Source: Spirochaetota bacterium (GTDB lineage: Bacteria > Spirochaetota > UBA4802 > UBA5368). From it: 64,000 nt of DNA. A program made the translations under genes and the position numbers. The number at the start of each line of letters is the position of its first letter. The stretch's first letter is position 1. Below the pieces are notes generated by a model. The model worked only from the letters and a program-made list of their open reading frames with translations, did no database searches and had not been told where the DNA came from. This document shows positions 52,352 to 62,140 of the stretch, piece by piece. The stretch is taken from the NCBI GenBank assembly GCA_004297825.1, contig SCSX01000079.1:62001-126000 (forward strand), in the 5' to 3' direction.

Positions 52352-52765
52352 TCACGCCCCCATGACCGTGACTACGATCGCGCGCGTGTCGCGCGGCCCG
52401 TCGAACTCGCACAGGAAAATATTCTGCCATCGCGAGAGCCCCAGCGTTCCCCCGATGACGGGGACCGTCTCGCCCGGCCCCACGATGCCCGCCTTAAGAT
52501 GGGCGTCCCCGTTGCCGTCCTGCCGGTCGTGTTCCCAGACGCCGCGCGGTACCAGTTCTCGCAGGAGACGGATGCAGTCGTTCCGTACGCTTTCGTCCCA
52601 GTTCTCCTGGATCATCACCGCGGCCGTGGCCCCCTGGACATAGACCGATACCGTCCCCGTCGTCACGCCGCTGCGCGCGACGACCGCCCGCACCCCGGAG
52701 GTGATGTCGTATAACGCCTCCCGCGCGGTGGTGGCGAGGCTGATCGTTTCCTGCGTGATTTTCAT
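52352..52765 (-). CDS. YjbQ / UPF0047 family protein
   Basis: 137 aa, the family's usual size. Conserved strings GTVSVYVQGATAAVMIQENW, NGDAHLKAGIVGPGETVPV and LGLSRWQNIFLCEFDGP are present with the metal-binding His. Members have weak thiamine-phosphate synthase activity in vitro; the cellular role is unclear. ATG 52765 gives the standard N-terminus MKITQETISL; longer upstream frames are not needed. Divergent from the CULT gene, sharing a 182-base regulatory gap. Confidence 0.88.
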   Translation of the reverse strand: MKITQETISLATTAREALYDITSGVRAVVARSGVTTGTVSVYVQGATAAVMIQENWDESVRNDCIRLLRELVPRGVWEHDRQDGNGDAHLKAGIVGPGETVPVIGGTLGLSRWQNIFLCEFDGPRDTRAIVVTVMGA

Positions 52766-52947: not shown

Positions 52948-53376
52948 ATGCAGCTGATACTGGAGATCACTTCCCCGAGACCGGAAATCGAACTGAAGAA
53001 GACCTCGTCCGAGCCGCCCGGGCATACGGAGATCGAGATCCTTACGCTCAAGGAAACCCGCACCGGGAAGAAGAAGACGCTTATCTGCAAATTCTGCGGC
53101 CACGAGATCACCTCGCGCGCCGAATCCCTTGAAATGGGGGGAAATCATACGCATTCATTCATGAATCCGGCGGGCATACGCTTCCGGATCGGGTGCTTCA
53201 CCCGGGCGAAGGGCTGCGTCGTCGCGGGGGAAGCGACGGACGAACATACGTGGTTTCCGGGATACTCATGGCAATTCGCGCTCTGCGGGCTGTGCGCGGC
53301 GCACATGGGGTGGTTCTACGGCTCCGCGGGACACGGGTTTTTCGGGCTCATCCTGGAAAACCTGGTCGAGCTTTAA
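52948..53376 (+). CDS. Bacterial cereblon-type (CULT domain) protein
   Basis: 142-aa soluble protein made of a short N-terminal extension (about 1-42) and one CULT domain. Zinc ligands: Cys47, Cys50 (CKFC) and Cys113, Cys116 (CGLC). The ligand-pocket motif EHTWFPGYSW ... HMGW gives Trp102, Trp108 and Trp122 plus His100. Spacing of the three Trp (6 and 14) and of Trp to Cys (5 and 6) equals human cereblon W380/W386/W400 and C391/C394. ATG 52948 is favoured because a promoter-like AT block (TTTACA ... TATAGA) lies just upstream; a longer frame from 52855 exists. Bacterial members bind uridine and thalidomide-type imides in vitro; their physiological role is unknown. Confidence 0.85.
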   Translation: MQLILEITSPRPEIELKKTSSEPPGHTEIEILTLKETRTGKKKTLICKFCGHEITSRAESLEMGGNHTHSFMNPAGIRFRIGCFTRAKGCVVAGEATDEHTWFPGYSWQFALCGLCAAHMGWFYGSAGHGFFGLILENLVEL

Positions 53377-53395: not shown

Positions 53396-54106
53396 TTAAA
53401 GACACGAACCGGACACGGCGTCTTTTCCCTGGAATGGGGCGCGCCGCTTGGGACATTCCTGCCGGGGGCACCGCATGCAGTTTATGAACGCATGCTCCGA
53501 GAAATAGATTATCCCGGAAACGGACTTGAGCGGTCTCATCATGAAGTTATCTCCCAGCGCAACGCCCAGCGCACGCGCCTCGCGCTCAAGCAGACCGAAA
53601 AGCTCCCGTTGACCCTCGATGGGCCATTCCTTGAGCGAGCCCGGGTTCACCATGGAGACGGCGCCGTGCTCCCGTCCCTCCGAGAGCCTCGCCATGAGCG
53701 CGACGACCGCGCTCTCGAGGACGAGCCCCGCGATCTCGTCGGCCCAGTAGCGCTCGAGCATGTCGTCCTTGCCCGCGGCCCATTCCTCCGCCTGGGGGCC
53801 CGCGGTCGCGATGAAGGGGTACGCGAGTTCGGTGTCGCACAGGTTTTCGGCGAGAAGCGTGCTGGGGAACCTGGTTTCTTCCAGCACGACGGAGGCGTCG
53901 TCCTCGCGCCGTACGGGGCTTTCGCGCCAGGCGGCGCGGGGTCGCGCGATCGAGGCGGCCTGCGCGATGAGGTCCCGCGCGCGCGCGGCATGGGGGCTCC
54001 CGGCGCCGATGCGCAACCGGGGCAGTATCGGACCCGGATCGCCGTCAAAGCGCGCCTCGAGGAGAAGCGTCCCTGAACCTGCGTCCTTCGTATTCACGGA
54101 TTCCAT
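53396..54106 (-). CDS. Corrinoid (MetH-type) activation-domain-like protein
   Basis: 236 aa. The C-terminal half SMVNPGSLKEWPIEGQRELF, the later PLKSVSGIIYFSEHAF and NCMRCPRQECPKRRAPF follow the vitamin B12-dependent methionine synthase activation region, and the late Cys cluster could hold an Fe-S centre as in RACE-like reactivators. The N-terminal half is less conserved. Free-standing versions are common in anaerobes beside corrinoid methyltransferases, but none is adjacent here. Divergent from the hydantoinase-like gene and convergent with the CULT gene (19 bases apart). Confidence 0.75.
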   Translation of the reverse strand: MESVNTKDAGSGTLLLEARFDGDPGPILPRLRIGAGSPHAARARDLIAQAASIARPRAAWRESPVRREDDASVVLEETRFPSTLLAENLCDTELAYPFIATAGPQAEEWAAGKDDMLERYWADEIAGLVLESAVVALMARLSEGREHGAVSMVNPGSLKEWPIEGQRELFGLLEREARALGVALGDNFMMRPLKSVSGIIYFSEHAFINCMRCPRQECPKRRAPFQGKDAVSGSCL

Positions 54107-54258: not shown

Positions 54259-55935
54259 ATGCTTATCGGGCTTGACGTGGGCGGGACCCATACCGACAGC
54301 GTGCTCATCGGGAAGGAAGGCATCCTCGCCCAGGCGAAGGTTCCCACCAACCATGAAGACCTGCTCGAGTCGGTGATCGCGGGCATACGCGCGGTGATTG
54401 GCGGGACCGATGCCGCGGCCGTCACCCGCGTGAACCTGAGCACGACGCTCTCCACGAACGCGATCGTGGAGGGGAAGGCGGAGAAGGTGGGCGTCGTCGT
54501 CACGGCGGGCGCCGGGATAGACCCGCGGGGATTTTCCACAGGGGACCATTTCGCCTTCGTCCCGGGCTCGATAGATCACCGCGGAACCCAGACGGCAATG
54601 CTCGACGAGAAGTCGCTCGACGCGGCGGCGAAGGCGTTCCGCAAGGCGGGACTCAGGGTGTACGCCGCGGTGGGAAAGTTCTCGACCCGCAACATCACGC
54701 ACGAAAACGCAATCAGGGATGCGCTCGCTGCGCAGTCGGATTTCACCACCGCGGGCCACCTGCTCTCCGGGAGGCTCAATTTCCCGCGCCGCATCGCGAC
54801 CGCGTATTACAATTCCGCCGTGTGGCGCCGTTATACGCAATTCGCCGACGCGGTCGAGGAGGGCGTGCGCGCCCTGGGGATTCGCGCCGCGCTCTGCGTC
54901 CTCAAGGCCGACGGCGGCACCATGCCGCTCGCGCTCTCCCGCAGCCTCCCGGTCGAGACGATACTCTCCGGGCCCGCGGCGAGCGTTATGGGCATCGTCG
55001 CACTCTGCAGGCCCGCGGAGGATTCGGTGCTGCTCGATATCGGCGGCACCACGACCGACATCGCCGTCTTCGCCGCGGGCGACCCGCTCATCGAGCCCGA
55101 CGGCATTTCGCTCGACGGGCGGCCCACCCTGGTGAGGGCGCTGCGCACGCGGTCCATTGGCGTGGGCGGGGACTCCGCACTCGAAGTGCGCGACGGCGCG
55201 GTGCTCGTGGGTCCCGTGCGGCGCGGTTTTTCAATGGCGGACGGCGGCGCGCACCCCACGCTTACCGACGCGTGCAATGTCGGCGGATTTTCGAGTTACG
55301 GGGGCACGGATCGCTCGGCGAAGGGGATCGGGGAGCTCGCGAAAAGACACGGGATGAAGCCGGCCGAGCTGGCGAACGCCGCGGTGGAGACGGCGGTGGC
55401 GTCGATACGCGGACAGGTTGAGGCGCTGGTCTCCCAGGTCAACGAGCGTCCCGTCTACACCATCCACGAGATGATCGAGGGTAAGCGCATAGAGCCGCGC
55501 ACGGTCTACGTCGTGGGCGGCCCGGCGCGCACCTTCGCCCCGCTTATAGAGAAGGCGATGGGGGTGAAGACGGTGCTCCCGAACCACCACGGCGTCGCGA
55601 ACGCCGTGGGCGCGGGGCTCGCCAGGACCACCATGTACATCGAGCTCCTCGCGGACACGGAACAGAGGCGCCTCATCATACCCGACCTCAACGTGGCGCG
55701 CGAGATCACCCCGGGCTACGCGCTCGCGGACGCCGAGAAGGACGCGAAGCGCTATCTTCTCGATCATATGCGCGCGCAGCAGGTGACCGACGTGGATATA
55801 AGCGCCGAGGTGGTGGAGTCCTCGGTCTTCCATATGGTGCGCGGCTTCACGGCGACGGGCAAGAACATCCGCGTGCGCTGCCAGGTGAAGCCGGGTGTGC
55901 TCGAGGAATTTGCGGGAGCGGTGGCGGGGCAATGA
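54259..55935 (+). CDS. Hydantoinase/oxoprolinase-family ATPase (HyuA-like)
   Basis: 558 aa. ASKHA-type nucleotide motifs: GLDVGGTHTDSVLI at the N-terminus, VLLDIGGTTTDIAVF near residue 260 and VVGGPARTFAPL near 415. This is shorter than classic HyuA or 5-oxoprolinase A (about 690 aa) and lacks the usual C-terminal domain and an adjacent HyuB, so it may be an acetone-carboxylase-like or reactivase-type ASKHA enzyme. ATG 54259 with GGGGG upstream. Its stop overlaps the HDAC-like gene start. Confidence 0.82.
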   Translation: MLIGLDVGGTHTDSVLIGKEGILAQAKVPTNHEDLLESVIAGIRAVIGGTDAAAVTRVNLSTTLSTNAIVEGKAEKVGVVVTAGAGIDPRGFSTGDHFAFVPGSIDHRGTQTAMLDEKSLDAAAKAFRKAGLRVYAAVGKFSTRNITHENAIRDALAAQSDFTTAGHLLSGRLNFPRRIATAYYNSAVWRRYTQFADAVEEGVRALGIRAALCVLKADGGTMPLALSRSLPVETILSGPAASVMGIVALCRPAEDSVLLDIGGTTTDIAVFAAGDPLIEPDGISLDGRPTLVRALRTRSIGVGGDSALEVRDGAVLVGPVRRGFSMADGGAHPTLTDACNVGGFSSYGGTDRSAKGIGELAKRHGMKPAELANAAVETAVASIRGQVEALVSQVNERPVYTIHEMIEGKRIEPRTVYVVGGPARTFAPLIEKAMGVKTVLPNHHGVANAVGAGLARTTMYIELLADTEQRRLIIPDLNVAREITPGYALADAEKDAKRYLLDHMRAQQVTDVDISAEVVESSVFHMVRGFTATGKNIRVRCQVKPGVLEEFAGAVAGQ

Positions 55936-57242
55936 TGAAATCGGAAAGGAAACTGGGCATTATATTCTTCCCCGCGTACGACTGGGCGATAAGCCCCACG
56001 CACCCGGAGCGGCAGGAGAGGCTCCTGTATACGCAGGACCAGCTCGTCGAGGAGGGTCTCTTCGATATCGACGGCATCACCGAGTACAAGCCGGATCTCG
56101 CGACGGTCCAGGACGTGGAGCGGGCCCATTTCTGCTTTCCCGACACGCCCCACATCCTCACGGAATCGCACCTGGTGTCGGCGGGGGGCGCGATAAAGGC
56201 CGCGCGGCTGGTGCTCGACAAAAAGGAAGACAGGGCGTTCGCGCTGGTGCGCCCGCCGGGACATCACGCGATGAAGGTGGTGCACGGGGCGCGCGGGTTT
56301 TGTAACGTCAACATCGAGGCCATAATGATCGAGTATATCCGCGAGCATTACGGGCAGAAGCGAATCGCCGTCGTAGACACGGATTGCCACCACGGCGACG
56401 GCACCCAGGACATCTACTGGCACGATCCCCACACCCTGTACATATCGGTCCACCAGGACGGCCGTACGCTGTATCCCGGTTCGGGCTTTATCGGCGAGCT
56501 GGGGGGTCCCAATGCAATAGGCAGGACGATCAATATCCCCCTGCCGCCGGAAACGGCCGATGACGGATTCCTGTTCGCGCTCGAAAAAATCATCATGCCC
56601 ATCCTGAAAGACTTCAAGCCGGACCTGGTGATCAACAGCGCCGGCCAGGACAATCACTACTCCGATCCCATCACGAACATGAACTTTTCGGCGCAGGGCT
56701 ATGCGCGCCTGAACGAGGTGCTGAACCCGGACATCGCCGTGCTCGAGGGCGGGTACGCGATACAGGGGGCGCTGCCCTACGTCAACCTGGGGATAGCCCT
56801 GGCCATGGCGGGCGTCGATTATTCCTCCGTGCGCGAGCCCGATTTCGACCGCGATTCGTTGAAACAGGACGCAGGCGTCACGCAGTATATAAAGAAGATC
56901 GCGGACGAGATTCTCGACACCTATGCGCACCTCGCGGACCACGCGTCAAGGGGAATGCCCGGGAACTATTCGGTACGCAAGAAAAACATTTACTATGACA
57001 CCGACGGCATCCAGGAAAACCAGGTGGAATCGGTAATGGTGTGCGACGAGTGCGCCGGCGTGCTGAAGATCGAGACGTTGAGCACGGTGAACCCGCTTTG
57101 CCTGGGGGTGGAGATCCCGGTCGGGGCGTGCCCGCGATGCAGGCGCGAGGGGCTGCGTATACTTGACGAGGGTCGGAAAAAAGGCAAGTACCGGCATATC
57201 CAGCTCATCAACCGCGCGGACAGGGAATACGCGCGTTTTTAA
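55932..57242 (+). CDS. Histone deacetylase-family amidohydrolase with C-terminal zinc ribbon
   Basis: 436 aa. The HDAC/AcuC/APAH core spans about 10-310: RPPGHHAMK (catalytic His pair), DTDCHHGDGTQD (Zn Asp/His) and SAGQDNH (Zn Asp). A C-terminal extension of about 90 residues holds CDEC ... CPRC, a likely zinc ribbon not found in typical bacterial members. ATG 55932 overlaps the preceding stop. Possible substrates are acetylated polyamines or lysines; fusion and coupling to a hydantoinase-like ATPase suggest a specialised amide-hydrolysing pair. Confidence 0.86.
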   Translation: MMKSERKLGIIFFPAYDWAISPTHPERQERLLYTQDQLVEEGLFDIDGITEYKPDLATVQDVERAHFCFPDTPHILTESHLVSAGGAIKAARLVLDKKEDRAFALVRPPGHHAMKVVHGARGFCNVNIEAIMIEYIREHYGQKRIAVVDTDCHHGDGTQDIYWHDPHTLYISVHQDGRTLYPGSGFIGELGGPNAIGRTINIPLPPETADDGFLFALEKIIMPILKDFKPDLVINSAGQDNHYSDPITNMNFSAQGYARLNEVLNPDIAVLEGGYAIQGALPYVNLGIALAMAGVDYSSVREPDFDRDSLKQDAGVTQYIKKIADEILDTYAHLADHASRGMPGNYSVRKKNIYYDTDGIQENQVESVMVCDECAGVLKIETLSTVNPLCLGVEIPVGACPRCRREGLRILDEGRKKGKYRHIQLINRADREYARF

Positions 57243-59586: not shown

Positions 59587-61749
59587 CTAGCTGATGAAGA
59601 GCATCTCCCAGAACTTGGGAAGCGGCCATATCGAGTCGTCGATATACTCTTCCAGGATGTCCGCTTTTTCGCGGATCTCGATCATTACCTTCTTGATCTC
59701 ATTACAGTAATACGCGGCCTTCTTCTCCTCGTCATGCATGGCCCCGGCCTTGTCGTTCCTGGCCTTGAGGTCGTTGACCGAGGTCTGCAGGGCGCTCACG
59801 AGCGACAACACGGTCTTCAGGAGCTCCTTCTGGACCTTGAGGTCGGACGAATCGCCGAGTATTTCGGAGACCGACGCGATCGAGGTCGCGACCTTGTACT
59901 GGTAATCAAGGCCGGCGGGGATCACCTGGTTCTGCACCATCGAATAAAGCGTCATCGCCTCGATGTCGAGCTCCTTGACGTAGCGCTCCACGCGGATGTG
60001 ATACCGCGATTTGAGCTCCACCTTGGAGAGCACGCCGTATTTTTCGAAGAGCGAAAGCGCCTTTTCCGTGACGAGATCGGTGAGGGATTCGGGCGTGGTC
60101 TTCTTGTTCGGAAGCCCGCGCCGTTTCGCCTCGTCTTCCCATTCCTTCGTGTAGTTGTCGCCCATGTACAGTATGGGCTTGAGGGTCTTGATCTCCTCGC
60201 GAATCACGTCGAGCGCGGCCTGCTTCACGTCACCGCCCTTCGCCTTGATCTTGGAGGCGAGCACGTCCAGGCTTTCCGCCACGATCGTATTGAGCACGGT
60301 CGCGGAGAAGGCGATCGACTGGGACGAGCCTACCGCGCGGAATTCGAACTTGTTCCCGGTGAAGGCGAACGGCGAAGTCCTGTTGCGGTCGGTGCTGTCC
60401 TTGGAAAGAATGGGCAGTTTCGAGAGCCCCAGGTCGATGATCGCCGCGTTCGACGCGGAGGTTACGAGCCCCTTCTCGATGTTCTCGATTATCTGCGTGA
60501 GCTGTTCGCCCAGGAAGACCGAGATGATCGCGGGGGGGGCTTCGTTCGCGCCCAGGCGGTGGTCGTTGCCGCTCGACGCGACGGCCGCGCGGAGCAGGTC
60601 GGCGTGGAGGTAGACCGCGCGGATGGTCGCGATCAGGACCACGAGAAACTGGATGTTGTCATGCGGCGTTTTGCCCGGGTTGAGCAGGTTGTTCCCCAGG
60701 TCGTCCGAAAGCGACCAGTTCAGGTGCTTGCCCGACCCGTTGATGCCCGCGAAGGGTTTCTCGTGCAGGAGCGCGGCGAGCCCGTGCTTGATGGCGACGG
60801 TGCGCAGCGTATCCATGACCAGGTAGTTGTGGTCTACGGCAAGGTTCGCCTCTTCGTACATGGGGGCGATTTCGAACTGGCTCGGGGCCACCTCGTTGTG
60901 ACGGGTCTTCGCCGGGATGCCCAGCTTGAAAAGCTCCTCCTCGACGTCATGCATGTAGGAGAGGATGCGCTCCTTGATGCTCCCGAAATAGTGGTCTTCC
61001 AGCTGCTGGCCCTTGGGGGGCTCGCCGCCCAGGAGCGTACGCGAGCTGAGCACAAGGTCCTTGCGTTCCTGGTAGTAATCCTGGTCGATAAGGAAATATT
61101 CCTGCTCGGGTCCCAGCGTCGCGTAGATGCGCTTCGCCTTGCTGTTGTTCAGGAGGCCTACAATCGAGAGCGCGCTCTTGTTGATGGCGTTGATCGAGCG
61201 CAGGAGCGGGGTCTTCTTGTCGAGCGCTTCCCCGGAGTAGGAAATGAACACCGAGGGGATGCACAGCACGGTCCCGATTCCGCGCTGGAGTATGAACGCG
61301 GGGCTCGAGGGATCCCACGCCGTGTAACCGCGCGCTTCGAACGTCGAGCGGATTCCGCCGCTCGGGAAGCTGGAGGCGTCGGGCTCGCCCTGCCACAGTT
61401 GCTTGCCGGAAAAGCGCTCAATGCCCATGCCGTTTTCGGCGGGTTCGATGAAGGCGTCGTGCTTTTCCGCGGTGGAGCCGGTCATGGGCTGGAACCAGTG
61501 GCAGTAATGCGTGGCCCCTTTCTCGAGCGCCCATTCCTTCATCGCGTGCGCGACCGCGTTGGCTATGGTGATGTCGAGGGTGCGCTGCCCGTGGAGAATC
61601 TCGACCATGCTGTCGTAAATGTCTCTGGGAAGTTTCTCCAGCATCGCGGTGAGATTGAACGTGTTCTCGCCGTAGTAGCGGGATACCGGCATGTCCTTTT
61701 CCTTGCAAATTGAAACATTGGTAGAATTGATCGGCGTTGACTCTGACAT
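59587..61749 (-). CDS. glnN: Glutamine synthetase, type III (GlnN)
   Basis: 720 aa, within the GSIII range. Makes glutamine from glutamate, ammonia and ATP as a large dodecamer. GSIII signatures readable: TFNLTAMLEKLPRDIYDS, EKGATHYCHWFQPMTGSTAEKHD, KTRHNEVAPSQFEIAPMYEEA and LHEKPFAGINGSGKHLNWSL. ATG 61749 has AAGGAGGAAG upstream and is preferred over a start 51 bases earlier. Divergent from glnA, 391 bases apart, so both nitrogen-assimilation genes share a control region. Confidence 0.95.
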   Translation of the reverse strand: MSESTPINSTNVSICKEKDMPVSRYYGENTFNLTAMLEKLPRDIYDSMVEILHGQRTLDITIANAVAHAMKEWALEKGATHYCHWFQPMTGSTAEKHDAFIEPAENGMGIERFSGKQLWQGEPDASSFPSGGIRSTFEARGYTAWDPSSPAFILQRGIGTVLCIPSVFISYSGEALDKKTPLLRSINAINKSALSIVGLLNNSKAKRIYATLGPEQEYFLIDQDYYQERKDLVLSSRTLLGGEPPKGQQLEDHYFGSIKERILSYMHDVEEELFKLGIPAKTRHNEVAPSQFEIAPMYEEANLAVDHNYLVMDTLRTVAIKHGLAALLHEKPFAGINGSGKHLNWSLSDDLGNNLLNPGKTPHDNIQFLVVLIATIRAVYLHADLLRAAVASSGNDHRLGANEAPPAIISVFLGEQLTQIIENIEKGLVTSASNAAIIDLGLSKLPILSKDSTDRNRTSPFAFTGNKFEFRAVGSSQSIAFSATVLNTIVAESLDVLASKIKAKGGDVKQAALDVIREEIKTLKPILYMGDNYTKEWEDEAKRRGLPNKKTTPESLTDLVTEKALSLFEKYGVLSKVELKSRYHIRVERYVKELDIEAMTLYSMVQNQVIPAGLDYQYKVATSIASVSEILGDSSDLKVQKELLKTVLSLVSALQTSVNDLKARNDKAGAMHDEEKKAAYYCNEIKKVMIEIREKADILEEYIDDSIWPLPKFWEMLFIS

Positions 61750-62140
61750 GTGACTGCTTCCTCCTTCTGGGGTTATGCGAAGGTTTATCGGCCCGAGCAT
61801 ATTGTTAAGTAATACTCATTTTTTGGCTTGATTGGGCAGAAAATGAAAGAGCCGCTTCATTCTGTCAAACGACAAATCGAAGTGATATGTTACATACATG
61901 TTAAATAGGCAATATCGGTACCCCACGCTTTCAGGGAACGCGATAGGGGCAGGCCGGTACCATTCGCGGGCGCACCGCTTCGTTCCCTCATAGCGGAAAA
62001 TCCATATATCAGCATACCTTGTTACGCCTAAGTTAAATAAGGATGAAAAAAAGATCATGTTCACGGGTCGGCATTGACGTACGCGGGGAATGGTACTACT
62101 TTTCCGTATATTTATAATAATAACGCTAGGAGTGATTTCC
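61750..62140. promoter_or_regulatory. Divergent glnN-glnA control region
   Basis: 391 bases without a gene. A minus-strand TTGACA lies at 61863-61868 (read as TGTCAA), and TTGACG at about 62074 is followed by AT-rich sequence with TATAAT near 62112. The string GTTAAATA(A)GG occurs twice (about 61898-61909 and 62032-62042). No sigma-54 consensus or clear NtrC palindrome was found. Regulatory sites are therefore unassigned. Confidence 0.45.

Follow-up and report, generated by a model that had tools for sequence, protein, structure and literature searches.

The CULT gene, its pocket and its known relatives

The window, as the whole stretch of 64,000 nucleotides that was analysed is called here, carries on its forward strand an open reading frame that begins with an ATG at 52948, ends with a stop codon at 53376 and encodes a CULT-domain protein of 142 amino acids. 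It is the only copy of a CULT gene in the source genome and is flanked on both sides by genes of the opposite strand, namely a divergent YjbQ/UPF0047 gene (52352-52762, reverse strand) and a convergent gene (53396-54106, reverse strand), the product of which resembles the B12-dependent methionine synthase activation domain weakly, with an E of 4.6e-4 that does not reach the Pfam cut-off. Further on lie the forward-strand genes of a HyuA-like (Hydantoinase_A) protein (54259-55935) and an HDAC-like amidohydrolase (55932-57242), which overlap by 4 nt, and the reverse-strand gene of a 737-aa protein that is a type III glutamine synthetase by sequence (59587-61800).

None of the Pfam and NCBIfam models reports the 142-aa protein. 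A phmmer search against PDB sequences places MsCI4 of Magnetospirillum gryphiswaldense (MGR_0879; PDB 4v2y and many other entries; E 9.9e-26, residues 45-141) first among its solved relatives and human cereblon (E about 1e-12 to 1e-11, residues 41-126) next. Residues 41-142 (53068-53373, forward strand) form the CULT domain and are modelled with high confidence by AlphaFold2 (pLDDT 94-98). Superposition on solved CULT domains demonstrates the beta-tent fold: the model fits thalidomide-bound MsCI4 (4v2y) at 1.1 Å over 100 residues (Z 19.9) and the human cereblon structures at 1.3-1.6 Å (Z 17-18). The sequence matches and the predicted fold together bear out the earlier assignment of the gene to the cereblon-type CULT proteins.

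The cage consists of Trp102 (53251-53253), Trp108 (53269-53271) and Trp122 (53311-53313), which correspond to W380, W386 and W400 of human cereblon and to W79, W85 and W99 of MsCI4. The zinc site is made up of two CxxC pairs, C47/C50 (53086-53097) and C113/C116 (53284-53295), and a hairpin Asn-Pro, N73-P74, lies at 53164-53169 (all on the forward strand). All nine of these residues are identical in 39 of 39 aligned bacterial sequences. In a 71-sequence alignment neither the Trp and Cys residues nor N73 vary, and at least 90% of the rows retain P74. The earlier note had proposed an intact tri-Trp pocket with the spacing of human cereblon, together with aligned zinc CxxC pairs, and both proposals hold. 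It had also equated His100 with human H378; the equivalence stands, but histidine is not a feature of the family, since bacterial relatives more often have Phe or Tyr at this position. The pocket is predicted to be unblocked, because the predicted fold corresponds to the ligand-bound-like one, and the blocked pocket that the earlier note named as counting against its proposal does not appear in the model. We infer, by transfer from MsCI4 only, that the window protein may bind thalidomide and uridine.

No other Pfam or NCBIfam domain was recognised in the protein beside its CULT domain, and it is a bacterial single-domain CULT protein. Like the CULT domain of human cereblon, with which it has about 32% identity, it possesses the cage Trp, the equivalent of His378, the zinc site and the fold, but it lacks the LON domain and the DDB1-binding region that precede CULT in cereblon proper: the 40 residues ahead of the domain form a low-confidence tail with no Pfam match. 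MsCI4, with about 44% identity, also consists of a single CULT domain with the same zinc and tri-Trp sites, whereas it has Phe at the position of His100. The family as such is already known. Lupas et al. 2015 (PMC4287342) list one spirochaete, and the bacterial group treated there, including Leptospira sp. B5-022, is likewise single-domain. The earlier remark that bacterial CULT proteins are without an established physiological role agrees with PMC4287342 and PMC4449219.

Gene neighbourhood, distribution and inheritance

Four group samples supplied the 98 CULT loci of the neighbourhood comparison. HyuA-like, HDAC-like and corrinoid-activation-like genes were found beside CULT in 0 of the 97 other loci, and YjbQ recurs near CULT only in one genome of the same genus. 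Histidine kinases aside, no neighbour family recurs widely in the 98 loci, and the neighbours that are shared are restricted to small sets of related genomes. Histidine kinases (14 of 98 loci) were rejected as a linked partner because they belong to a large promiscuous superfamily. Any one Pfam family accounts for at most 4 of 85 immediate neighbours; rhodanese (4/85 downstream genes) and FG-GAP proteins (4/85) are each confined to small groups of loci and were discarded as partners. A Penicillin amidase family gene is convergent with CULT at L061:7285-9855, with a homologue at L065:7239-9797, an arrangement seen only in one genus (g2) of the window's family. The synteny of the 98 loci leads to the rejection of an operon or neighbour partnership for every neighbour of CULT in the window.

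The HyuA-like gene is present in single copy in 36 of the 46 genomes of the order. Strong HyuA matches occur in 24/29 CULT-bearing and 11/17 CULT-lacking genomes (Fisher p 0.28), so the two genes are not co-distributed in the order, and in every other genome possessing both they lie on different contigs. In all 15 of the other genomes that were examined, the HyuA-like gene is closely followed by the HDAC-like one, with CULT not adjacent, and the pair is also found in CULT-lacking genomes, including those of family f2. The two genes are a conserved unit of their own, apart from CULT. A glutamine synthetase homologue is located near this unit in 10 of the 15 genomes, and no HyuB-type partner was seen among its scanned neighbours; in the window the unit lies at 54259-57242 on the forward strand. 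The recurrent association of CULT with HyuA that the earlier note had expected from a neighbourhood survey is absent, and the link it drew to hydantoinase and amide chemistry is not supported; the interpretation built on the neighbours is contradicted by synteny. The chemically related genes lie close to CULT by chance of position.

In a sample of 296 genomes of the phylum, 32 have CULT, and 29 of these belong to the window's order or below; samples around the genomes of three other loci gave 29/297, 16/237 and 20/349. According to the profile search, 29 of the 46 genomes of the order carry the gene, and families f2 and f4 have none. In a tree of 96 CULT domains, which is built on few columns and has many weak forks, 3 label changes suffice for the 28 copies of the order, where shuffles take 24. 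Since the copies of the order cluster in this way, inheritance within the order seems to be mostly vertical. A search of viral contigs for CULT returned one 20-residue match only. One incomplete genome from the window's family contains a CULT remnant with two in-frame TGA codons (L071; G204:C101:635-829), which may be a copy in decay or an error of assembly. The apparent extra domains in the long CULT frames of L170, L192, L203, L206, L209 and L210 were dismissed, as the translations point to upstream read-through in open frames.

The N-terminal tail motif

Many CULT copies have a short motif of a hydrophobic residue, [FL] and [KR] about 25-30 residues ahead of the first CxxC. Plotted by distance to that CxxC, tail composition shows a maximum of hydrophobic residues at -34 to -30 and one of Lys/Arg at -30/-29. 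In bacterial CULT proteins the motif is followed by an acidic linker that is probably disordered. In the window protein, IELKK at residues 14-18 (52987-53001, forward strand) matches the family motif hydrophobic-x-[FL]-[KR] weakly, and between it and the CULT domain there is a charged linker of the family composition (residues 19-40, 53002-53067, forward strand; pLDDT about 57-60). Compared with MsCI4, which has 23 residues ahead of the first CxxC cysteine, its tail is longer and includes both the motif and the linker.

When 63 proteins are aligned by MAFFT, a column with F/L in 54 of 61 rows is followed by one with K/R/Q in 58 of 62. An alignment can itself produce such columns, and for this reason the motif was tested alignment-free. 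Of 44 non-redundant tails, 35 contain the dyad [FL][KR], as against 19.1 ± 3.0 in shuffled ones, with a maximum of 30 in 2000 shuffles. An EM motif search scored 109 versus 89 ± 3.4 in the shuffle comparison; this run used tails without their last 10 residues, and untrimmed tails gave the domain edge only. When the motif was tested across groups on held-out tails, transfer from spirochaetes to the others succeeded and the reverse failed. In a re-alignment control the best [FL][KR] column covered 32% of the 44 rows, whereas shuffled tails gave a mean of 8% and a maximum of 18%; a looser dyad of any class did not exceed the shuffles in this control. The start codons were chosen by rule, and some tails are perhaps too long or too short.

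Two structure models give the tail middling confidence, with a local rise at the motif: residues 11-20 of the window protein have pLDDT 75 versus 57-62 in the flanking tail blocks, and for a second member the value is 70 at the motif versus 55-64 beside it. One divergent clade (L195-L197) lacks the motif. We regard the motif as real, and its combination with the linker suggests a tethered reader or an adaptor. In PMC4287342 members of the bacterial group are described as made up of nothing but the CULT domain, and the passages considered here make no mention of a tail motif. The motif, the synteny result and the pattern of inheritance are new here.

Proposed role and candidate ligands

The reading that we favour, still tentatively, is that of a stand-alone, mainly vertically inherited CULT reader of a ubiquitous imide-bearing ligand, perhaps tethered by its tail to an effector. 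The zinc-pinned beta-tent domain would present the cage of three Trp, and this cage would, as in MsCI4, bind a cyclic imide or a uracil-like ring. The protein would act alone, without neighbouring genes, and such a reader appears to be its most likely role. The best ligand candidates would be C-terminal cyclic imides arising from protein damage, and after them free uracil or uridine, while the [FL][KR] motif on the flexible tail may tether the reader to an effector in an adaptor-like manner. Bacterial CULT proteins are workhorse crystallographic models for thalidomide-class drugs. MsCI4 binds thalidomide and uridine (PMC4449219). Cyclic imides at the C-terminus are read by human cereblon and can be produced by PCMT1 (PMC13001092). 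A PCMT match is present in 46 of 46 genomes of the order, which makes a source of such imides plausible; given this and the cereblon/PCMT1 analogy, a damage-reading role for CULT is plausible as well. Being universal, PCMT is uninformative as a co-occurrence diagnostic for the role of CULT. Should a C-terminal cyclic imide prove to be the natural ligand, the damage-reading function of cereblon would be older than ubiquitin.

The main rival to damage reading is a sensor or buffer of free uracil, uridine or dihydrouracil, in which the cage holds the pyrimidine ring and no proteolytic or repair role exists. The low micromolar binding of uridine by MsCI4 and the deoxyuridine bound to it in the crystal (PMC4449219; 4v31) are consistent with this possibility, but CULT has no pyrimidine-metabolism family among its recurrent neighbours, and we consider it on the unlikely side. 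It is more doubtful that the protein is a protease adaptor, handing imide-damaged proteins by way of the tail motif to a Lon- or Clp-type protease as a bacterial counterpart of the cereblon ligase. A binding domain, a linker and a short motif are present, as such an adaptor would have, and genes of a Lon-like protease (AAA_32, LonC_helical, Lon_C; L195:5829-8264 and L197:5452-7932) lie on the same strand directly downstream of two divergent CULT genes, at 87 and 444 bp; but these are two related loci only, the association is not significant, and both CULT copies are devoid of the tail motif.

A bolder form of the favoured reading, in which the [FL][KR] sequence is a docking motif that recruits a housekeeping effector, for instance a protease or an enzyme of repair, to proteins that end in a cyclic imide, would make CULT a two-part tethered reader and a ubiquitin-free forerunner of the cereblon pathway; we put it forward as speculation with a rather small chance of being right. 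Reading of methylated Lys/Arg or of quaternary ammonium groups by the aromatic cage is improbable: the cage architecture is similar to that of methyl-lysine readers according to PMC4287342 and PMC4449219, but the former reports no interaction of choline, carnitine and betaine with the bacterial model, and the latter calls binding tests of such groups inconclusive. Least credible of all is the model of the earlier note, a ligand-binding helper of the neighbouring HyuA/HDAC-type enzymes on cyclic imides or amides, since the genes adjoin in the window genome alone, the survey, the separate contigs and the CULT-independent HyuA-HDAC pair argue against it, and the HyuA-like protein scores 68 bits with the NCBIfam caprolactamase model (cut-off 1000) and 43 bits with the acetophenone carboxylase model (cut-off 1250). 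With this tempting neighbour-based hypothesis removed, CULT appears as a gene kept within the order without fixed neighbours.
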